Source: Chitinophaga pinensis (GTDB lineage: Bacteria > Bacteroidota > Bacteroidia > Chitinophagales > Chitinophagaceae). From it: DNA of 64,000 bases. Within the stretch, counting starts at the first letter, position 1. Each line of letters starts with the position of its first letter. The notes under the pieces were generated by a model. It was not told the DNA's origin and did no database searches. It worked only from the letters and a program-made list of their open reading frames with translations. Where the stretch lies: NCBI GenBank assembly GCA_945878115.1, contig CAMDVD010000001.1:1-64000 (forward strand), read 5' to 3'. A program made the position numbers and the translations under genes. This document shows positions 52,983 to 64,000 of the stretch, one piece after another.

Positions 52983-55900
52983 ATGAAGAAAAAATTACTC
53001 CTGACGCTGTCCATTCTTTTGATTGGACTACAAACGGTGCTGGCTCAGTCTGGCATGATTCGAGGAAAAATTACGGATGATCGAAGCGAAGGACTTCCCG
53101 GTGCAACCGTACGTGTAAAAGGCACCATTAAAGGAGCCGTCACAGATTTAAACGGAAATTTTAAAGTGAATGCAGAAGATGGTGCTACTTTGATTATTAG
53201 TGCGATTGGTATGAAAACTACTGAACAGCCAGCGCAAGACGGCATGAATGTAAAAATGGCGACTGAAACAAGAGGCATTGGCGAAGTAGTTGTTACTGCG
53301 CTTGCTATTCAACGTGAAAAACGAAGTTTGGGCTACTCAACAACGCAAATAAAAGGCGAAGAGTTGGTACAAGGTCAAGACAGAAATGTATTGAGCGCAA
53401 TCTCTGGTAAAGTAGCAGGTGTAAACATTACGAACACTTCAGGTTCACCAGGAAGTGGTACCCGCGTTGTTATTCGTGGTGGTTCTTCTGTTCAAGGAAA
53501 TAACCAAGCCCTAATTGTAGTGGATGGTGTTCCATTTGATAATAGTAATTTGCAAAATGGTGGAGATAACTTAAACAATCAAATAGATGCTGGTAATCGT
53601 GGTAATGATATTAATCCAGAAGATGTAGAAAGCATGACTGTACTTAAAGGTGCTACTGCAACTGCATTGTATGGTGCACGTGCTTCTAATGGTGCGATTA
53701 TCATCACAACAAAAAGAGGAAAATCAGGTCGTGGTGGTACAGGTAAAAATGCAACCTTTACTTCTAATTACGGCATGAGTGGTATTTTGATGTATCCTGA
53801 ATTCCAAAACAGCTGGGGACAAGGATATGGCGGCGAGTCACATTCTGAAGAGAATTGGAGTTGGGGTCGCAAATTCGATGACAAATTAGCTCCATGGGGT
53901 AATGTGGTAAATGGGGTTCAAAAAATTAAACCTTATTCTGCTTTAAAAGATAATGTCAAAGATTTTTTCCGCAGAGGTCAAACTATGCAAAATAATTTTT
54001 CTATTGGCGGTGGAAATGACAAAGGCAATTATTATGTGTCATTTAATAATTTGACAAGTGATGGTATCGTAGCTAATTCTGGATATAAAAGAACTGGTTT
54101 GCGTTTCAACGGAAGTTCTACGATGAATGATAAATTGTCTGCACAAATCGGTGTAAATTATACTAAAGTAAAAGGTGATTTATTTGCACAAGGGCAAGCA
54201 AATAATTCTTTTTATGATCAAATTTATCAAACCCCACGTGATATTCCAATGCGTGAATTACGAGACTTGAGTGATCCATTCAATACTTTAGAAGGTTATT
54301 ACGGTGCTTATACAGTAAATCCTTATTATGTTTTGGAAAATTACAAAAACCAAAATAATGTAGATCGTGTTGCTGGTAATGTTGATGTTACTTATAAGCC
54401 TTTCAAATGGTTACAAGTTTTAAATAGAACTACAAATGATTTTTATATTGATAATACGACACAATATTCACCTAAGTATAATATCACTCGTCCTGATTTT
54501 GGAATTGATATTAAAGAACCAGGTCAATATTCTATTGGGAATACAATCTATAACGAAACCAATAATGATTTGATGTTGACTTTTAAGCAAGGTTTGGCTA
54601 AGGATTTCTCCATGAATGCTTTGTTAGGACATAATGTAAGACAAAGAAGAGTTAGAAATTCATACACAGAAACTAAGGGAATTATTGCGAATGGTTGGGA
54701 AAATATTGATAATAATGCGGATGGCTTTAACGCAACAAGCAGTTTGTTTATGAAGAGATCTGTTGGATTATATGCTGATATCGGTTTTAATTATTCTGAT
54801 TATTTATTCTTAAACATAACTGGAAGAAATGATTGGTCGTCTACGTTGCCAACAGATAAGAATTCATATTTCTATCCAAGTGCATCATTATCCTTCGTGT
54901 TTTCTGATTTGTTGCAAAAACAAGCAGATATGAAAGATAATATTTTATCTTATGGTAAATTGAGAATGAGCTTAGCACGTGTAGGAAATGACGCTAGTGA
55001 ATATAAATTAAATGGAACATTTAGTAAAGGTTATGTTACAGATGGTTTTAATAATTCAGAACTTAACTTCCCAATAAATGGCACAGCTGGAGTTTCTTCT
55101 ACTAATTTGTTGGAAAACCCAAATCTTAAACCTGAAATAACAACGGCTCAAGAAATTGGTACAGAATTAGGATTTTTCCACGACCGATTAAAATTAGATG
55201 TATCATTATATAAAAGTACTGGTAAAGATCAAATTATTGATGTTGATTTACCTGCTTCAACTGGTTATACTGCTGGTGTTTTCAACGCAGGAAAAATTGT
55301 CAACAAAGGAATTGAAATAGCCATTTCTGGAACGCCAATTAAAATGGCAAACAGTTTGAAATGGGAATTGTTTATGACTTACACGAAAAACAAAAGCAAC
55401 GTAGAAGAATTATTTGGTGAGAATAAACAACTAAGTCTTGGTGGTTTTAATGGTATGAGTGTGGTTGCTGCAGTTGGTCAACCTTACGGTACGTTTTATA
55501 CCAAAGGACCTGAGCGTACTTCTACTGGCCAAGTCATTTGTGATCCAGCAACAGGAATGCCTATCTTAAGCCAATCACCACAATTGTATGGTTCATACAA
55601 TCCAGATTGGATGGGTAGTTTGGGTACTGATTTGTCCTACAAAGGACTTAAACTGCACATGTTATTTTTCCACAAGCAAGGCGGTCAATTCTACTCTCGT
55701 TTGAAAAATATTATGGAGTTTGTTGGTACAGCATCTACTACTGAGTATAACGATAGAGAAGATTTCGTAGTTCCAAATTCTGTGGTGGAAGTTAGTCCTG
55801 GTGTTTATGCAACTAATCAGACACCTGTAAGTGCTGAAACATATTGGACAGAACAATCGAATAATGAAATGAATATTTTGCCTGCTACATTTACGAAATT

Positions 55901-56156
55901 GAGAGAGGTTTCGTTGTCGTACAGCTTACCTAAAAGATGGATGAAAAAATCACCATTTGGTGCTGTTGAGTTCGGTCTTTATGGAAATAATTTATTCCTT
56001 TGGGTATCAAAAGAAACAAACGAATTTGGACAACGCAAGAATACTTTCAGTGATCCAGAAATTAGTGGTTTCGGAACCGGAAATGTACAAGGCATTGAAT
56101 TTGGTACTGTACCATCTTTGAAAAACTATGGCGTAAACTTAAAAATTACCTTTTAA
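52983..56156 (+). CDS. SusC/RagA-family TonB-linked outer-membrane transporter
   Basis: The signal peptide MKKKLLLTLSILLIGLQTVLAQ is followed by the carboxypeptidase-regulatory-like domain (MIRGKITDDRSEGLPGATVRV ... DLNGNFKV), a TonB/plug segment with GYSTTQIKGEELVQGQDRNVLSAISGKVAGV and the SusC signature VDGVPFDN ... INPEDVESMTVLKGATATALYGARASNGAIIITTK, then the barrel ending in NLKITF. At 1057 residues it is standard. With SusD (56178) it forms the lidded importer for oligosaccharides or peptides. No glycoside hydrolase is next to it, so the substrate cannot be assigned; the third gene is a small lipoprotein. Confidence 0.97.
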   Translation: MKKKLLLTLSILLIGLQTVLAQSGMIRGKITDDRSEGLPGATVRVKGTIKGAVTDLNGNFKVNAEDGATLIISAIGMKTTEQPAQDGMNVKMATETRGIGEVVVTALAIQREKRSLGYSTTQIKGEELVQGQDRNVLSAISGKVAGVNITNTSGSPGSGTRVVIRGGSSVQGNNQALIVVDGVPFDNSNLQNGGDNLNNQIDAGNRGNDINPEDVESMTVLKGATATALYGARASNGAIIITTKRGKSGRGGTGKNATFTSNYGMSGILMYPEFQNSWGQGYGGESHSEENWSWGRKFDDKLAPWGNVVNGVQKIKPYSALKDNVKDFFRRGQTMQNNFSIGGGNDKGNYYVSFNNLTSDGIVANSGYKRTGLRFNGSSTMNDKLSAQIGVNYTKVKGDLFAQGQANNSFYDQIYQTPRDIPMRELRDLSDPFNTLEGYYGAYTVNPYYVLENYKNQNNVDRVAGNVDVTYKPFKWLQVLNRTTNDFYIDNTTQYSPKYNITRPDFGIDIKEPGQYSIGNTIYNETNNDLMLTFKQGLAKDFSMNALLGHNVRQRRVRNSYTETKGIIANGWENIDNNADGFNATSSLFMKRSVGLYADIGFNYSDYLFLNITGRNDWSSTLPTDKNSYFYPSASLSFVFSDLLQKQADMKDNILSYGKLRMSLARVGNDASEYKLNGTFSKGYVTDGFNNSELNFPINGTAGVSSTNLLENPNLKPEITTAQEIGTELGFFHDRLKLDVSLYKSTGKDQIIDVDLPASTGYTAGVFNAGKIVNKGIEIAISGTPIKMANSLKWELFMTYTKNKSNVEELFGENKQLSLGGFNGMSVVAAVGQPYGTFYTKGPERTSTGQVICDPATGMPILSQSPQLYGSYNPDWMGSLGTDLSYKGLKLHMLFFHKQGGQFYSRLKNIMEFVGTASTTEYNDREDFVVPNSVVEVSPGVYATNQTPVSAETYWTEQSNNEMNILPATFTKLREVSLSYSLPKRWMKKSPFGAVEFGLYGNNLFLWVSKETNEFGQRKNTFSDPEISGFGTGNVQGIEFGTVPSLKNYGVNLKITF

Positions 56157-56177
56157 TTTAAACCCACAATTATAAAA

Positions 56178-57626
56178 ATGAAATCGATAAATATATATAA
56201 AATAGCATTCCTCTTTGTTGGAATTACAATGATGAGTACTTCATGTAAGAAGTGGCTTGATACAAACAAAGATCCAAATTTATTAGAACAGTCTAAAGCT
56301 ACTGTCCAGCTTACCTTGCCTACTGCAGAATATACGATATCTTATGTTCTTGGCAATAGATATGCTGAATTGGGTGGTTTTTTATCGCAATATTGGACGC
56401 AATTACCTTCTGCAACACAATATTATGATTATGATAGATATTCATTTGATGCAGCTGATGCAAATAGAGAATGGAATCAACTTTATGCAGGGGCTTTAAA
56501 AGATTTGAATTTTATAGTATCAAAAGGAAGCGCTGATGGAGATTCTAATTATGTTGCTGCCGCAAAGGTTTTACAAGCGTATACATTTCAGTTGGTATCG
56601 GACGTACATGGCGATGTTCCTTTCTCAGAGGCATTACAAGCGCAGTCTGGTACGCTTGCTCCTCACTATGATAAACAAAAGGCTATTTATGCAGGGTGCG
56701 TTAAATTGATTGATGATGCAAATATGCTTTGGAGTGACGATGCAAAGAAAGCAATCACTACTGAAGATGTTCTTTTCGGTGGCGATTTAGATATGTGGAA
56801 GAAATTTGCGAATACATTGAAATTGAAACTTGCTGTACGTCAGTCAGGTGCTAATTCCGCTGAAGCGATTTCCATACTTGCTGAACTAAGTGGAGCAAGC
56901 TTTTTGGAAGGAACTGACGTAGCGTCTATCAAATTTTATGAAGTAAAGGGAAATCAAAACCCATTATATGCAAGTATACAAGGAATTGGCGTTGACAATA
57001 ATGTAGCTTCAAAAGCAATTGCTGATTCAATCAATGGCTGGGGTGATCCAAGAGCAGCAGCATTTTTTGATGAAGCAACATTTGGTGGTGCTGGAATTAA
57101 TGGCACGCAACAAGGTGCTGCTGCCTTTGGTGGGTACTCTTCTTCTTCTCCTCGTTCAAGCTTATCTTCCACCGTTTTGGGTAAAACAACTCCAGTTATT
57201 TTAATGTCAGGTTGGGAGAGTAAATTCTTACAATCAGAAGCGAAAGCAAATGGCTGGTTAGCAGGCGGAACAACAGCACAAGAAGATTACGAAGACGCGA
57301 TAGTTTCAAACATGAGTTTCTTTGGTATTGACACTACAGGATTGGATTTATTTGCGGCTGCTCCTTATGCTTGGGATACGGATCCATTAAATAATGTACA
57401 ACAAATCGCTATTCAAAAATGGGTTGCATTTTGTGGTACGCAAAACATGGAATCTTGGATAGAATTAAGAAGAATGGGTTATCCAGTTCTTTTACCTTCA
57501 AAAGCGACACAATTAGGTCTACTTTTCCCACAAAGAATTCCTTATGTTGATGGAGAAATAGCCTCTAATCCTAATTGCCCTGCCCAATTACCTATCACAG
57601 ATAAAATGTGGTGGGATATTAATTAA
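56178..57626 (+). CDS. SusD/RagB-family outer-membrane lipoprotein (SusD-like_2 type)
   Basis: The signal peptide has lipobox STSC, followed by KKWLDTNKDPNLLEQSKATVQLTLPTAEY. The helical TPR-rich body includes ANREWNQLYAGALKDLNFIV and KVLQAYTFQLVSDVHGDVPFSEALQ (the GDVPFSEA block of the SusD-like_2 subfamily), WKKFANTLKLKLAVRQS, and at the end QQIAIQKWVAFCGTQNMESWIELRRMGYPVL with LLFPQRIPY. It is 482 residues. It acts as the surface lid and binding protein of the SusC transporter 21 bases upstream. Confidence 0.96.
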   Translation: MKSINIYKIAFLFVGITMMSTSCKKWLDTNKDPNLLEQSKATVQLTLPTAEYTISYVLGNRYAELGGFLSQYWTQLPSATQYYDYDRYSFDAADANREWNQLYAGALKDLNFIVSKGSADGDSNYVAAAKVLQAYTFQLVSDVHGDVPFSEALQAQSGTLAPHYDKQKAIYAGCVKLIDDANMLWSDDAKKAITTEDVLFGGDLDMWKKFANTLKLKLAVRQSGANSAEAISILAELSGASFLEGTDVASIKFYEVKGNQNPLYASIQGIGVDNNVASKAIADSINGWGDPRAAAFFDEATFGGAGINGTQQGAAAFGGYSSSSPRSSLSSTVLGKTTPVILMSGWESKFLQSEAKANGWLAGGTTAQEDYEDAIVSNMSFFGIDTTGLDLFAAAPYAWDTDPLNNVQQIAIQKWVAFCGTQNMESWIELRRMGYPVLLPSKATQLGLLFPQRIPYVDGEIASNPNCPAQLPITDKMWWDIN

Positions 57627-60336: not shown

Positions 60337-60358
60337 TATTCCCCTCCATATAGAAATT

Positions 60359-60389
60359 AAAACTGCTCCTTGTGAGCAGTTTTTTTTTG
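60359..60389 (+). terminator. Terminator of rpsA
   Basis: Stem AACTGCTC / GAGCAGTT with a five-base loop and a following T-run of nine. It lies just after the rpsA stop. Confidence 0.9.
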
Positions 60390-60402
60390 TTGATTATAAT
60401 AA

Positions 60403-60444
60403 AAACTAAATAAACTTTTGATATATGAAAAGTTTATTTAGTTT
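60403..60444. promoter_or_regulatory. 42-bp near-perfect palindrome overlapping the TetR/RND promoter
   Basis: Left arm AAACTAAATAAACTTTT (60403-60419) is the exact reverse complement of the right arm AAAAGTTTATTTAGTTT (60428-60444). The eight centre bases GATATATG contain a palindromic ATATAT, leaving one mismatched pair. It covers the TTTG -33 element (60417-60420), the 18-bp spacer and most of the TAGTTTTG -7 box (60439-60446), so a dimeric repressor bound here would block RNA polymerase. The adjacent TetR-family gene is the natural candidate. Confidence 0.85.
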
Positions 60445-60446
60445 TG
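60417..60446 (+). promoter_or_regulatory. Promoter of the TetR/RND efflux operon
   Basis: TTTG (60417-60420), 18 bases, TAGTTTTG (60439-60446), then CGCC and GTG at 60451. Both boxes match the Bacteroidota consensus; the start codon follows the -7 box by four bases. Confidence 0.8.
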
Positions 60447-60450
60447 CGCC

Positions 60451-61074
60451 GTGGAAATGAAAAAGCAAGATATTATTGCCGACGCATATAATCAGTTTAG
60501 ACTCTATGGGTTTAAAAGTGTGACGATGGACGATTTAGCTCGTACCATAGGTATCTCCAAGAAAACGTTATATGAATTATTTAAGGATAAAGATGAGCTA
60601 GTATTGGAAGCGGTTAAATACATGCTCAATACTAATCAATGCGATACGGAAGAGATATTTAAAAATTCGAATAACGCCATTGAACAAATTTTTGGCATAC
60701 TTGGACTAATGGAAAAAATGGTGAGAGGACTAAATTTGATTTGTTATATGGACATGCAACGTTATTACCCAGCATCCTATAAATATTTGGAAGAACACAA
60801 AAAAAATTATTTGTATAAATGCATTATTTCCAATTTGCAACAAGGGATTTCCGAAGGCTACTATCGTGAAGAAATTGATTTGGAAATAATTACGCGCTTT
60901 AGAATGGAATCTGCTTTACTCGTTTTTCAGAATAATTTATTTCCGCAGGATAAATATGATATCGTAAAAGTGAACAACGAAATATTTACCAATTTTATTT
61001 ATGGCATTGTTTCAATAAAAGGGTATAAACTGATTTCAAAATACTTACAAAAATCTTTAAAAAATAAAATATGA
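60451..61074 (+). CDS. TetR/AcrR-family transcriptional regulator
   Basis: N-terminal helix-turn-helix DNA-binding domain: QDIIADAYNQFRLYGFKSVTMDDLARTIGISKKTLYELFKDKDELV. An all-helical ligand/dimer domain follows (ICYMDMQRYYPASYKYLEEHKKNY, EIDLEIITRFRMESALLVFQ). Length is 207 residues from GTG at 60451, or 205 from the ATG at 60457; the GTG fits the four-base spacing to the -7 box seen elsewhere. Its stop overlaps the ATG of the TolC gene (ATGA). It probably represses its own operon through the 42-bp palindrome; the inducer is unknown. Confidence 0.95.
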   Translation: MEMKKQDIIADAYNQFRLYGFKSVTMDDLARTIGISKKTLYELFKDKDELVLEAVKYMLNTNQCDTEEIFKNSNNAIEQIFGILGLMEKMVRGLNLICYMDMQRYYPASYKYLEEHKKNYLYKCIISNLQQGISEGYYREEIDLEIITRFRMESALLVFQNNLFPQDKYDIVKVNNEIFTNFIYGIVSIKGYKLISKYLQKSLKNKI

Positions 61075-62462
61075 ATAAGAAGTTAGGGCTAATACTACTA
61101 TCCGCTTTGGCATCCATTGGATTGGGCGCACAAAACCGAACGGGATTTTCATTGGCCGATTGTATTACCTATGCTGTCACCAATCAACCTAAAATGAAGG
61201 GCGCAATATTGGATGAGCAAATGCAAATTGAAAAAAACAATGAAATCATTGGTATTGCTAGACCGCAAGTGAAAGCTACTGGGCAGTTTCAATATTTATT
61301 TGTCTTGCCAAAACAAAGAGCAGACGCTGGTGCATTTGATTTTTCGTCGAGCCTGAGCTTTTTTAAAATAGATACAGCAGCATATAATGAATACCAGAAA
61401 CTACCGAAGAAGAAATATAGCGACCTTCAGTTTGGTCTTCCGCTTAATGTATCAGCAGGTATTCAAGCATCTCAGATTTTATTCGATGCTGGGATTTTCG
61501 TCGCATTAAAAGCAAGAAAAAGTTTAGAGGAATTATCTACTTTAAATACAAAACGAACAGAGGAAGAAGTAAAAGTCTCTGTTTCAAAAGCATATTATAG
61601 TTGCCTTGTTGCAGAAAAAAGAATCCAATTATTAGATGAAAATATTTCGCTTCTCAATTCGGTTGAAAGTATGACTAAAAAGCTGTACGCAGAAGGATTT
61701 GTAGAAAAAATTGATGTGGATAGACTTACCGTGCAGAAGAATAATTTGATGATAGAAAAAGATAAAATTTTGAACTTAGTGGAGCTCAGCTATTCCATGT
61801 TGAAATTTCAAATGGGTATGCCACTCATGCAACATATTTCTTTATTAGATAGTTTAAGTTTAGATGAGGTGAAGAAAAATTTAGAATTAGATAAAGTACT
61901 TGATATATCTAATCGAACAGAAATTCAAACATTGAAGATGCTCAAGAAATTGAATGGTTATGATTATGAGCGTTACCAAAAAGGTTATCTACCAACGGTT
62001 GCAGCAGCATTATCCGGTAGTTATGCTACACAAACTAAAGCGGTGAAAGAGCTATTCACTTTACCTTATTTTCCAACTGGTGCATTTGTTTTGAGCGCTA
62101 GTGTTCCCATCTATGATGGTAATACACGAAAGGCTAAAATGAATCAAGCGAAATTGAATATGTTGAAAAATGACAATGATTTAATGGCAGCACAACAAGG
62201 TATAGAATTGGAAGTAAGCAATGCATTCGTTCAATTGCGAAATAGTATTACTTCACTAGAAAATCAAAAAAACAATATAGAATTGGCACAAAAAATCTAT
62301 ACCATTGCACAAACAAAATATAAAGAAGGTGTCGGCACAAATATTGAAATTATTCAGTCCGAAACGGCTTTGAAAGATGCACAAACCAATTATTATAATT
62401 CCATGTTTGAAGCAATCATTGCAAAAATTGATTATCAAAAAGCGCTTGGCATTTTGAAATAA
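61071..62462 (+). CDS. TolC-family outer-membrane efflux protein
   Basis: The signal peptide (LGLILLSALASIGLGAQ) is followed by two TolC-type repeats, each with long helices: FSLADCITYAVTNQPKMKGAILDEQMQIEKN and KARKSLEELSTLNTKRTEEEVKVSVSKAYYSCLVAEKRIQLLDENI in the first; LEVSNAFVQLRNSITSLENQKNNIELAQKIYTIAQTKYKEGVGTNIEIIQSETALKDAQTNYYNSMFEAI in the second. The protein forms the outer-membrane channel of the RND pump. At 463 residues it is standard. It overlaps the TetR gene by four bases. Confidence 0.95.
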   Translation: MNKKLGLILLSALASIGLGAQNRTGFSLADCITYAVTNQPKMKGAILDEQMQIEKNNEIIGIARPQVKATGQFQYLFVLPKQRADAGAFDFSSSLSFFKIDTAAYNEYQKLPKKKYSDLQFGLPLNVSAGIQASQILFDAGIFVALKARKSLEELSTLNTKRTEEEVKVSVSKAYYSCLVAEKRIQLLDENISLLNSVESMTKKLYAEGFVEKIDVDRLTVQKNNLMIEKDKILNLVELSYSMLKFQMGMPLMQHISLLDSLSLDEVKKNLELDKVLDISNRTEIQTLKMLKKLNGYDYERYQKGYLPTVAAALSGSYATQTKAVKELFTLPYFPTGAFVLSASVPIYDGNTRKAKMNQAKLNMLKNDNDLMAAQQGIELEVSNAFVQLRNSITSLENQKNNIELAQKIYTIAQTKYKEGVGTNIEIIQSETALKDAQTNYYNSMFEAIIAKIDYQKALGILK

Positions 62463-62575: not shown

Positions 62576-63700
62576 ATGAAACAATCATTGATTAAAATAA
62601 CTTCACTTGCTTTTGGCTCCATTCTATTTTTTGCAGCATGCGGAGATAATAAAGAAAATAAAGATCCCAAAAAAGCATTGGCAGATTTAAAGAAACAGCA
62701 AAAGGAATTACAAACTAAAATTGCTGCCTTAGAAGAAAAGAATGGCGGTAAAGACAGTGTGCGAAAAGTGGCTGTATTCGTGACTTCTATGCAAACAAGC
62801 ACATTCAATAATTATGTGGATGTGCAAGGCAAAGTAGATATTGATGAGGTCGTAAATGCTATTCCTGAAACCCCAGGTATAATCAGTGAAATTACGGTAA
62901 CACAAGGGCAACATGTAAGCAAAGGTCAAATTGTGGCACGACTTCGCGCTGAGAGTGTAGACAAAGGCATTGATGAATTGGATCAACAAATTTCGTTCTC
63001 TAAGATATTATATGATAAACAACAAAGCCTTTGGAACCAAGGAATAGGTACAGAAATTCAATTGCTTTCTGCGAAAAATCAATACGAGGCATTATTAAAA
63101 AAGAAACAATCCATACTAACTACAAGGGGTACTTTTAATGTGTATTCTCCAATAAGTGGTGTGGTAGATGCCATCGATGCAAGAGTTGGTCAGTCTTATG
63201 CATCACCTATAAATCCGCCATTGATTAGAATTATCAATACAGGGAAATTAAAGATCAAAGCAGACATTGCAGAGAATTATGCATCCATTGTAAAGACTGG
63301 TAATATGGTGAAAGTAATTTTCCCTGATATACAGGATACATTGATTACCAAAATTAGCTATGCAGAGCATATGATTAATAATGTATCGAGAACTTATGCC
63401 ACCTATATCCCATTGCCTACTAATGCTAAGTATCAGCCCAATATGATAGCGCAAGTAAAAATCGCAACGTATCAAAATCCAAAAGCATTTGTATTACCAG
63501 CGTCTGTGATTCAAAAAACAGAACAAGGAAATTTTGTATATATCATGGATGAAAACAACAAGGCAAAATTATTGCAAGTACAAATTGGTAATACCTATGA
63601 AGGAAAAGTAGAAATCATCAGTGGTTTGGCACTTGGCGAAAAAGTAGTTACGACAGGCTATGAAGAATTGAACGAAGGCGATTTTTTAGTTAATCAATAA
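62576..63700 (+). CDS. Efflux RND transporter periplasmic adaptor (AcrA-like)
   Basis: A lipoprotein-type signal (MKQSLIKITSLAFGSILFFAACGDN, lipobox FAAC) is followed by a short coiled coil (KALADLKKQQKELQTKIAALEEKNGG), the barrel-sandwich/lipoyl part (VNAIPETPGIISEITVTQGQHVSKGQIVARL ... FNVYSPISGVVDAIDARVGQSYA) around a helical hairpin, a beta-barrel (LKIKADIAENYASIVKTGNMVKVIF), and the membrane-proximal domain (ALGEKVVTTGYEELNEGDFLV). It links the pump to TolC. It is 374 residues, 113 bases after the TolC gene. Confidence 0.95.
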   Translation: MKQSLIKITSLAFGSILFFAACGDNKENKDPKKALADLKKQQKELQTKIAALEEKNGGKDSVRKVAVFVTSMQTSTFNNYVDVQGKVDIDEVVNAIPETPGIISEITVTQGQHVSKGQIVARLRAESVDKGIDELDQQISFSKILYDKQQSLWNQGIGTEIQLLSAKNQYEALLKKKQSILTTRGTFNVYSPISGVVDAIDARVGQSYASPINPPLIRIINTGKLKIKADIAENYASIVKTGNMVKVIFPDIQDTLITKISYAEHMINNVSRTYATYIPLPTNAKYQPNMIAQVKIATYQNPKAFVLPASVIQKTEQGNFVYIMDENNKAKLLQVQIGNTYEGKVEIISGLALGEKVVTTGYEELNEGDFLVNQ

Positions 63701-63862: not shown

Positions 63863-64000
63863 ATGAAATTTAATCCGTCTACATGGTCTATCAATAACAG
63901 AACCAGTGTATATATTCTCACCATTATTATTACTGCATTTGGATTATTGAGTTATCTCAATTTGCCTAAAGAGCAATTCCCTGAGGTGAAATTTCCGCAA
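63863..64000 (+). CDS. RND efflux pump (AcrB-like), N-terminal part, cut by window edge
   Basis: The ATG at 63863 opens MKFNPSTWSINNRTSVYILT followed by IIITAFGLLSYLNLPKEQFP, the first membrane helix and the start of the periplasmic domain of HAE1-type pumps (YNxLPKEQFPE block). Only 46 codons are in the window. It follows the adaptor after 162 bases of AT-rich DNA that contains TTTGAC/AATTTG-type low complexity. It completes a TetR-TolC-adaptor-pump operon for export of toxic small molecules. Confidence 0.9.
   Translation, partial: MKFNPSTWSINNRTSVYILTIIITAFGLLSYLNLPKEQFPEVKFPQ

Follow-up and report, generated by a model that had tools for sequence, protein, structure and literature searches.

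Operators of TetR-type repressors have usually been found one protein at a time. QacR, a Firmicute regulator, is not known to be autoregulatory, and its target is a single gene for an efflux pump. The described systems closest to the locus reported here are compared below as far as the available parts of their published accounts go. PsrA of Pseudomonas is a self-repressing TetR-family protein whose site, GAAAC-N4-GTTTC, lies over its own promoter and blocks RNA polymerase (PMC13104628). Our locus shares with it a TetR-type autorepressor (predicted here), the half-site GAAAC/GTTTC and an operator over its own promoter; it differs in having a spacer of 16 bp rather than 4 bp, and PsrA, in the portion of its account used here, governs fatty-acid and rpoS functions and not a cis RND operon. 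QacR resembles our system in being a TetR-type repressor of efflux whose inverted repeat is unusually long and is occupied by a pair of dimers, putatively so here (PMC4486848), whereas its half-site sequence, as given in the available text, is unlike that of our operator. DarR, a TetR-type self-repressor, recognises the palindrome ATACT-N4-AGTAT, and an imperfect site that overlaps it accommodates a second dimer; self-repression and a second dimer are both predicted for our locus, whereas a short spacer, another sequence and a second-messenger ligand set DarR apart. AcrR/CmeR-type regulators are also local TetR-type repressors adjoining an RND system, but at our locus the operon itself opens with tetR, behind a Bacteroidota-type promoter. 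The kind of system, an autorepressor operator over a core promoter, is already known. A literature search found no published mention of this particular operator in the titles and abstracts of the matches listed, and neither the phylum-wide operator nor the symmetric local variant described below was found in print among those matches.

Results

We analysed a window of 64,000 nucleotides, the whole stretch of DNA under study, in which an inverted-repeat scan placed a 44-bp palindrome with 21 of 22 pairs matched at 60402–60445, upstream of a tetR-family gene. The features of the locus are as follows.

60358–60389, + strand: intrinsic terminator (hairpin and T run) of the upstream rpsA-like gene, separate from the palindrome
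60402–60423 and 60424–60445, no strand: arms of the palindrome, 95% complementary, with no gap
60410–60437, no strand: putative 28-bp operator core, ATAAAC-N16-GTTTAT here and GGAAAC-N16-GTTTCC in most relatives
60417–60420, + strand: −33 box TTTG of the tetR promoter, from sequence and the consensus of PMC7366714
60439–60446, + strand: −7 box TAGTTTTG, from sequence, 18-bp spacer from the −33 box
60451–61074, + strand: tetR-family gene, GTG start 4 nt past the −7 box
61071–62462, + strand: TolC-like outer membrane efflux protein (OEP), 4-base overlap with the tetR stop
62576–63700, + strand: membrane-fusion (adaptor) protein, HlyD_D23
63863–64000, + strand: start of the RND transporter gene (ACR_tran, 9.5e-176), which continues past the window to about contig position 67237

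The palindrome is real and exceeds simulated sequence. Its inverted-repeat score was 18, with 12 for the runner-up in the window, and the top scores in simulated 64-kb sequences were 13 at the window composition and 15 at the local AT-rich composition (20 simulations each). The first-pass annotation had described a near-perfect palindrome of 42 bp at 60403–60444, with exact arms of 17 bases and one mismatched centre pair. The palindrome and its single mismatched pair (G60420/G60427) stand, one further end pair matches, and the exact arms, which flank the centre GATATATG, are 18 bp long.

The Bacteroidota promoter consensus, in the available text of its source, is TTTG at −33 and TAnnTTTG at −7 (PMC7366714), and this primary-sigma pattern, with TTTG near −33, was found at the tetR promoter. 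As had been claimed from first inspection, the palindrome lies over the −33 box, the spacer and most of the −7 box, of which the final base alone falls outside. In the 53 listed family loci the −7 box reads TAGTTTTG or closely resembles it.

Domain matches to OEP, HlyD_D23 and ACR_tran, all encoded in one direction, bore out the earlier assignment of a TetR/RND operon and identify a tripartite RND efflux operon. The protein encoded at 60451 carries a TetR_N helix-turn-helix (PF00440, 44.8 bits; cut-off 24) and is predicted to have an all-helical fold of two domains, with ten helices (AF2 mean pLDDT 91.9); its top Foldseek matches belong to the TetR family, KstR2 and FadR among them (TM 0.6–0.76). 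The upstream rpsA-like gene contains five S1 stretches. Further upstream, at 52983–57626, the window holds what we take from the open reading frame list to be a SusC/SusD-like gene pair.

In the assembly the exact operator is present at a single position. When up to two mismatches were permitted, AAACTTTT-N8-AAAAGTTT was present at 14 sites, including the operator. The reversed control gave 51 sites, and the 13 remaining near-matches are therefore attributed to chance. The strict family motif, described below, gave one site per matching genome and two in a single genome. A regulon with many sites per genome was ruled out, the core being unique in this genome.

We examined whether the operator accompanies tetR in relatives using loci chosen by protein, and therefore free of motif-selection bias. 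A protein search at order level found TetR in 95 of 99 genomes; five weak matches (G031, G038, G044, G049 and G086) were left out, and 90 loci were compared over 270 bp upstream (13 from the genus, 40 from other genera of the family and 37 from other families of the order). At least 11 of the 12 bases of GGAAAC-N16-GTTTCC were present at 38/40 loci of other genera in the family and 34/37 loci of other families, while the maximum among 357 control windows was 10/12. Outside the order, 62 of 77 class and phylum loci reached the same level and the other 15 fell below 11; this set comprises 77 of the 79 genomes there with a TetR match, and the 357 control windows belong to the order-level loci. 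None of 12 named loci outside the genus reached 11 bases (range 8–10), and several of these are labelled Bacteroidales, Lentimicrobium or Prolixibacteraceae. Within the genus just 5 of 13 loci reached it, and the window's own site scored 8/12.

A longer block that joins operator and promoter, AAACTTT-N10-AAAGTTTCCATAGTTTTG, was also scored. Out of 25 bases, the 13 genus loci matched 22–25, the 40 loci of other family genera 21–25 (at least 21 in all 53 family loci) and the 37 other-family loci 14–25, against at most 18 in control windows inside genes and at most 17 in those for the other-family set. In other families the core scores high and yet the block falls to 14–25, so the operator persists there and the promoter block does not. 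The search of homologous operons proposed by the first-pass annotation thus turned out in its favour: all 12 other genus genomes with TetR keep the block, at 22–25 of 25, and the core was not lost. In one of the 14 genus genomes, which is 70% complete, the TetR match was not found. A profile search of phylum genomes (E 1e-15) gave a TetR match in 90 of 198 and none in 108. TolC follows tetR in 89 of the 90 loci, the exception being a locus cut by its contig. Among these 90 loci the rpsA neighbour was found in this genome and G013 alone.

The comparison was also run starting from the motif. The strict family pattern matched 118 of 394 family genomes, with no reversed-control site among the matches listed; when gaps of 6–12 bp were permitted, every site among the matches listed had a 10-bp gap. 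The strict half-motif matched 57 of 296 phylum genomes, with about 10 control matches. Among 60 motif-returned loci, a subset of the matches (30 from the family search and 30 from the phylum search), a tetR relative was present in all 60 and a TolC relative in 52. These comparisons support the conservation of the predicted operator in place with its tetR gene, from genus to phylum.

Arrangements around the operator vary in places. In one class-level family (L156, L157, L161 and L162) the operator is followed by a small gene, YceI-like in L156, and then by tetR. In L156 and L157, 51 bp separate two operator-like sites, and the gene on the other side looks like a polyprenyl synthase; L246 has a tandem pair of operator-like palindromes upstream of tetR.

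Our reading, to which we give a probability of roughly 0.86, is that the palindrome serves the TetR-type repressor encoded downstream as its autoregulatory operator. The first-pass annotation had proposed such an operator for the efflux operon; its conservation beside tetR agrees with that proposal, whereas a length of 42 bp was not supported. The near-constant recognition helix and its covariation with operator position 2, given below, also speak for this reading. Against it count the low core scores of most genus loci, of the window site, of the 12 named loci and of 15 class and phylum loci, the 108 phylum genomes with no TetR match, the control matches of the phylum half-motif scan and a recognition helix that stays the same where the window lineage altered its operator. 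Without inducer, the repressor would occupy the 28-bp core, probably as two dimers. RNA polymerase would be excluded, since the core spans the −33 box and the spacer as well as the edge of the −7 box. An efflux substrate would free the repressor from the core, after which tetR, TolC, adaptor and RND genes would be transcribed as a single unit.

Transcription would start very close to the coding sequence. In the 13 genus loci a GTG lies 4 nt (10 loci), 5 nt (2) or 6 nt (1) past the −7 box, and in 12 of these it is the sole in-frame start candidate. The loci with this near-box GTG include 60451 and L003–L014, and G045 is likewise; in other family genera except G045 the start is at least 6 nt downstream and is mostly ATG. 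In Flavobacterium psychrophilum the −7 box spans −12 to −5 in the available text of the source (PMC9723704), and with a box so placed and a GTG 4–6 nt past it, the transcript would begin at the GTG or 1–2 nt earlier. We therefore predict that tetR transcription in the window begins with the G of the GTG and that the genus makes a near-leaderless GUG mRNA. Only a minority of transcripts in the phylum have short leaders: going by the available text of both sources, leaders under 10 nt make up 3.7% in B. thetaiotaomicron (PMC7366714) and leaderless transcripts 5.5% in F. psychrophilum (PMC9723704). Genome-wide, leaderless GTG promoters were not enriched (5 pattern matches vs 6 in the control).

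The recognition helix was compared with the operator at 154 measurable loci, after 25 of 179 were dropped for an imperfect AAAC/GTTT core or an unreadable helix motif. The motif SKKT-Y is nearly constant. Operator position 2 is G at 131 of 148 SKKT loci and belongs to a G-C pair at 127 of these, and all five measurable SKRT loci, from few lineages, lack that G (four A-T, one A-C). Some of the 12 named low-scoring loci have SKRT rather than SKKT, and GAAAAC or AAAAAC rather than GGAAAC. SKRT with position-2 A is thus a possible specificity switch. The loci that combine SKRT with A for G at this position are L169, L170, L172, L015 and L274.

Pairing across the dyad was tabulated for 80 distinct family sites. 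It was 84–100% at offsets 5–13, where core conservation is overstated since 30 underlying loci were drawn by the motif itself, and 26–66% at offsets 14–21; 42 bp was thus not borne out as the conserved operator length. Beyond the core the right side of family sites is fixed as the −7 box and the left side is free and A-rich, so the outer eight pairs may need no special function. All eight are mirrored in two family sites, the window's and L113 (G357), and seven in three more, G013 among them, whose TetR is 97% identical to the window's. Long symmetry appears to be mostly a feature of one small lineage, on top of the conserved 28-bp core.

It is unlikely, in our judgement, that the whole 44-bp palindrome is a selected operator of this lineage, occupied by a larger number of repressor units than the ancestral site of 28 bp. 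The excess of its 21 matched pairs over simulated sequence speaks for it, as do mirrored AAAACTA/TAGTTTT flanks seen by eye in three named Bacteroidales-type loci (L175, L177 and L179). At least seven of eight outer pairs were mirrored in 5 of 80 family sites when 2.3 were expected with left flanks reshuffled (0.3% of permutations reach 5), but the five include a near-identical pair, the window genome and G013, and the permutations ignore relatedness. Pairing at offsets 12–13 also exceeded permutation (141/160 cells vs 132.9, 0.18%; genus alone 15/26 vs 10.2, 4.4%). Against this, mean pairing at offsets 14–21 is about one half and the right side is set by the −7 box. As a family-wide conserved operator the outer arms were not borne out, the permutation leaving a weak excess.

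Within the 28-mer, an off-dyad AC at positions 14–15, a column chosen post hoc from sites with at least 11 of 12 bases (genus sites exempt), is present with both strands counted in 43/55 family, 46/61 class and phylum and 12/34 other-family order sites. The genus has it in 7 of 12 sites, six of these on the opposite strand; it is absent from the window site, G013 and three more genus sites. The GG/CC outer core bases are absent from the window site and G013, and no recognition-helix change matching the altered operator of the window lineage was seen.

That a single dimer with wide contacts binds the core, as the first-pass annotation had allowed, is quite improbable, even though single-dimer binding is usual for TetR-type proteins. 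The geometry makes it less likely: the core is a 28-bp inverted repeat, GGAAAC-N16-GTTTCC, with half-sites about two helical turns apart, an arrangement of the QacR-like two-dimer kind; in QacR, long half-sites are bound by a pair of dimers according to the available text (PMC4486848). The GGAAAC and GTTTCC centres are 22 bp (about 75 Å) apart, compared with the 39 Å that separate the recognition helices of a DarR dimer on DNA, as given in the part of that account used here. The off-centre AC would fit two dimers bound unequally, as in DarR.

For our preferred reading, autoregulation by the downstream-encoded repressor, binding by the adjacent TetR is a prediction only, and another DNA-binding protein could in principle use the operator. 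We consider this very unlikely, because one exact site in this genome and a tetR relative at 60/60 motif loci point to a dedicated local regulator. That the palindrome works as RNA, as a terminator or attenuator hairpin, is hardly credible and was rejected: the RNA form would fold well (−16.8 kcal/mol, z −7.7), but transcription is predicted to start downstream of the palindrome, the upstream gene already owns a GC-rich hairpin and T run, conservation covers sequence beyond pairing alone, and no Rfam family reached its gathering score at the palindrome.

Discussion

A broader account can be offered tentatively, with the odds somewhat against it. An ancestral asymmetric code, GGAAAC-N16-GTTTCC with an off-centre AC, would have run the TetR-RND operon across much of the Bacteroidota, read by two unequally placed dimers. 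In the window lineage the site would have lost the GG/CC bases and the AC and become fully symmetric while the recognition helix stayed the same. Promoter, operator and leaderless GTG would lie within about 50 bp, bringing repressor, polymerase and ribosome into competition for neighbouring bases.

One operator that can be traced with its regulator from genus to phylum would provide a test set for the coevolution of repressor and site, with K to R in the helix set against G to A in the site. In the Bacteroidota few local repressor-promoter pairs have been worked out, and here a compact promoter is at hand, with its repressor site predicted at single-base resolution. A separate oddity, also open to testing, is the near-leaderless GTG start that is predicted throughout the genus and conserved there.
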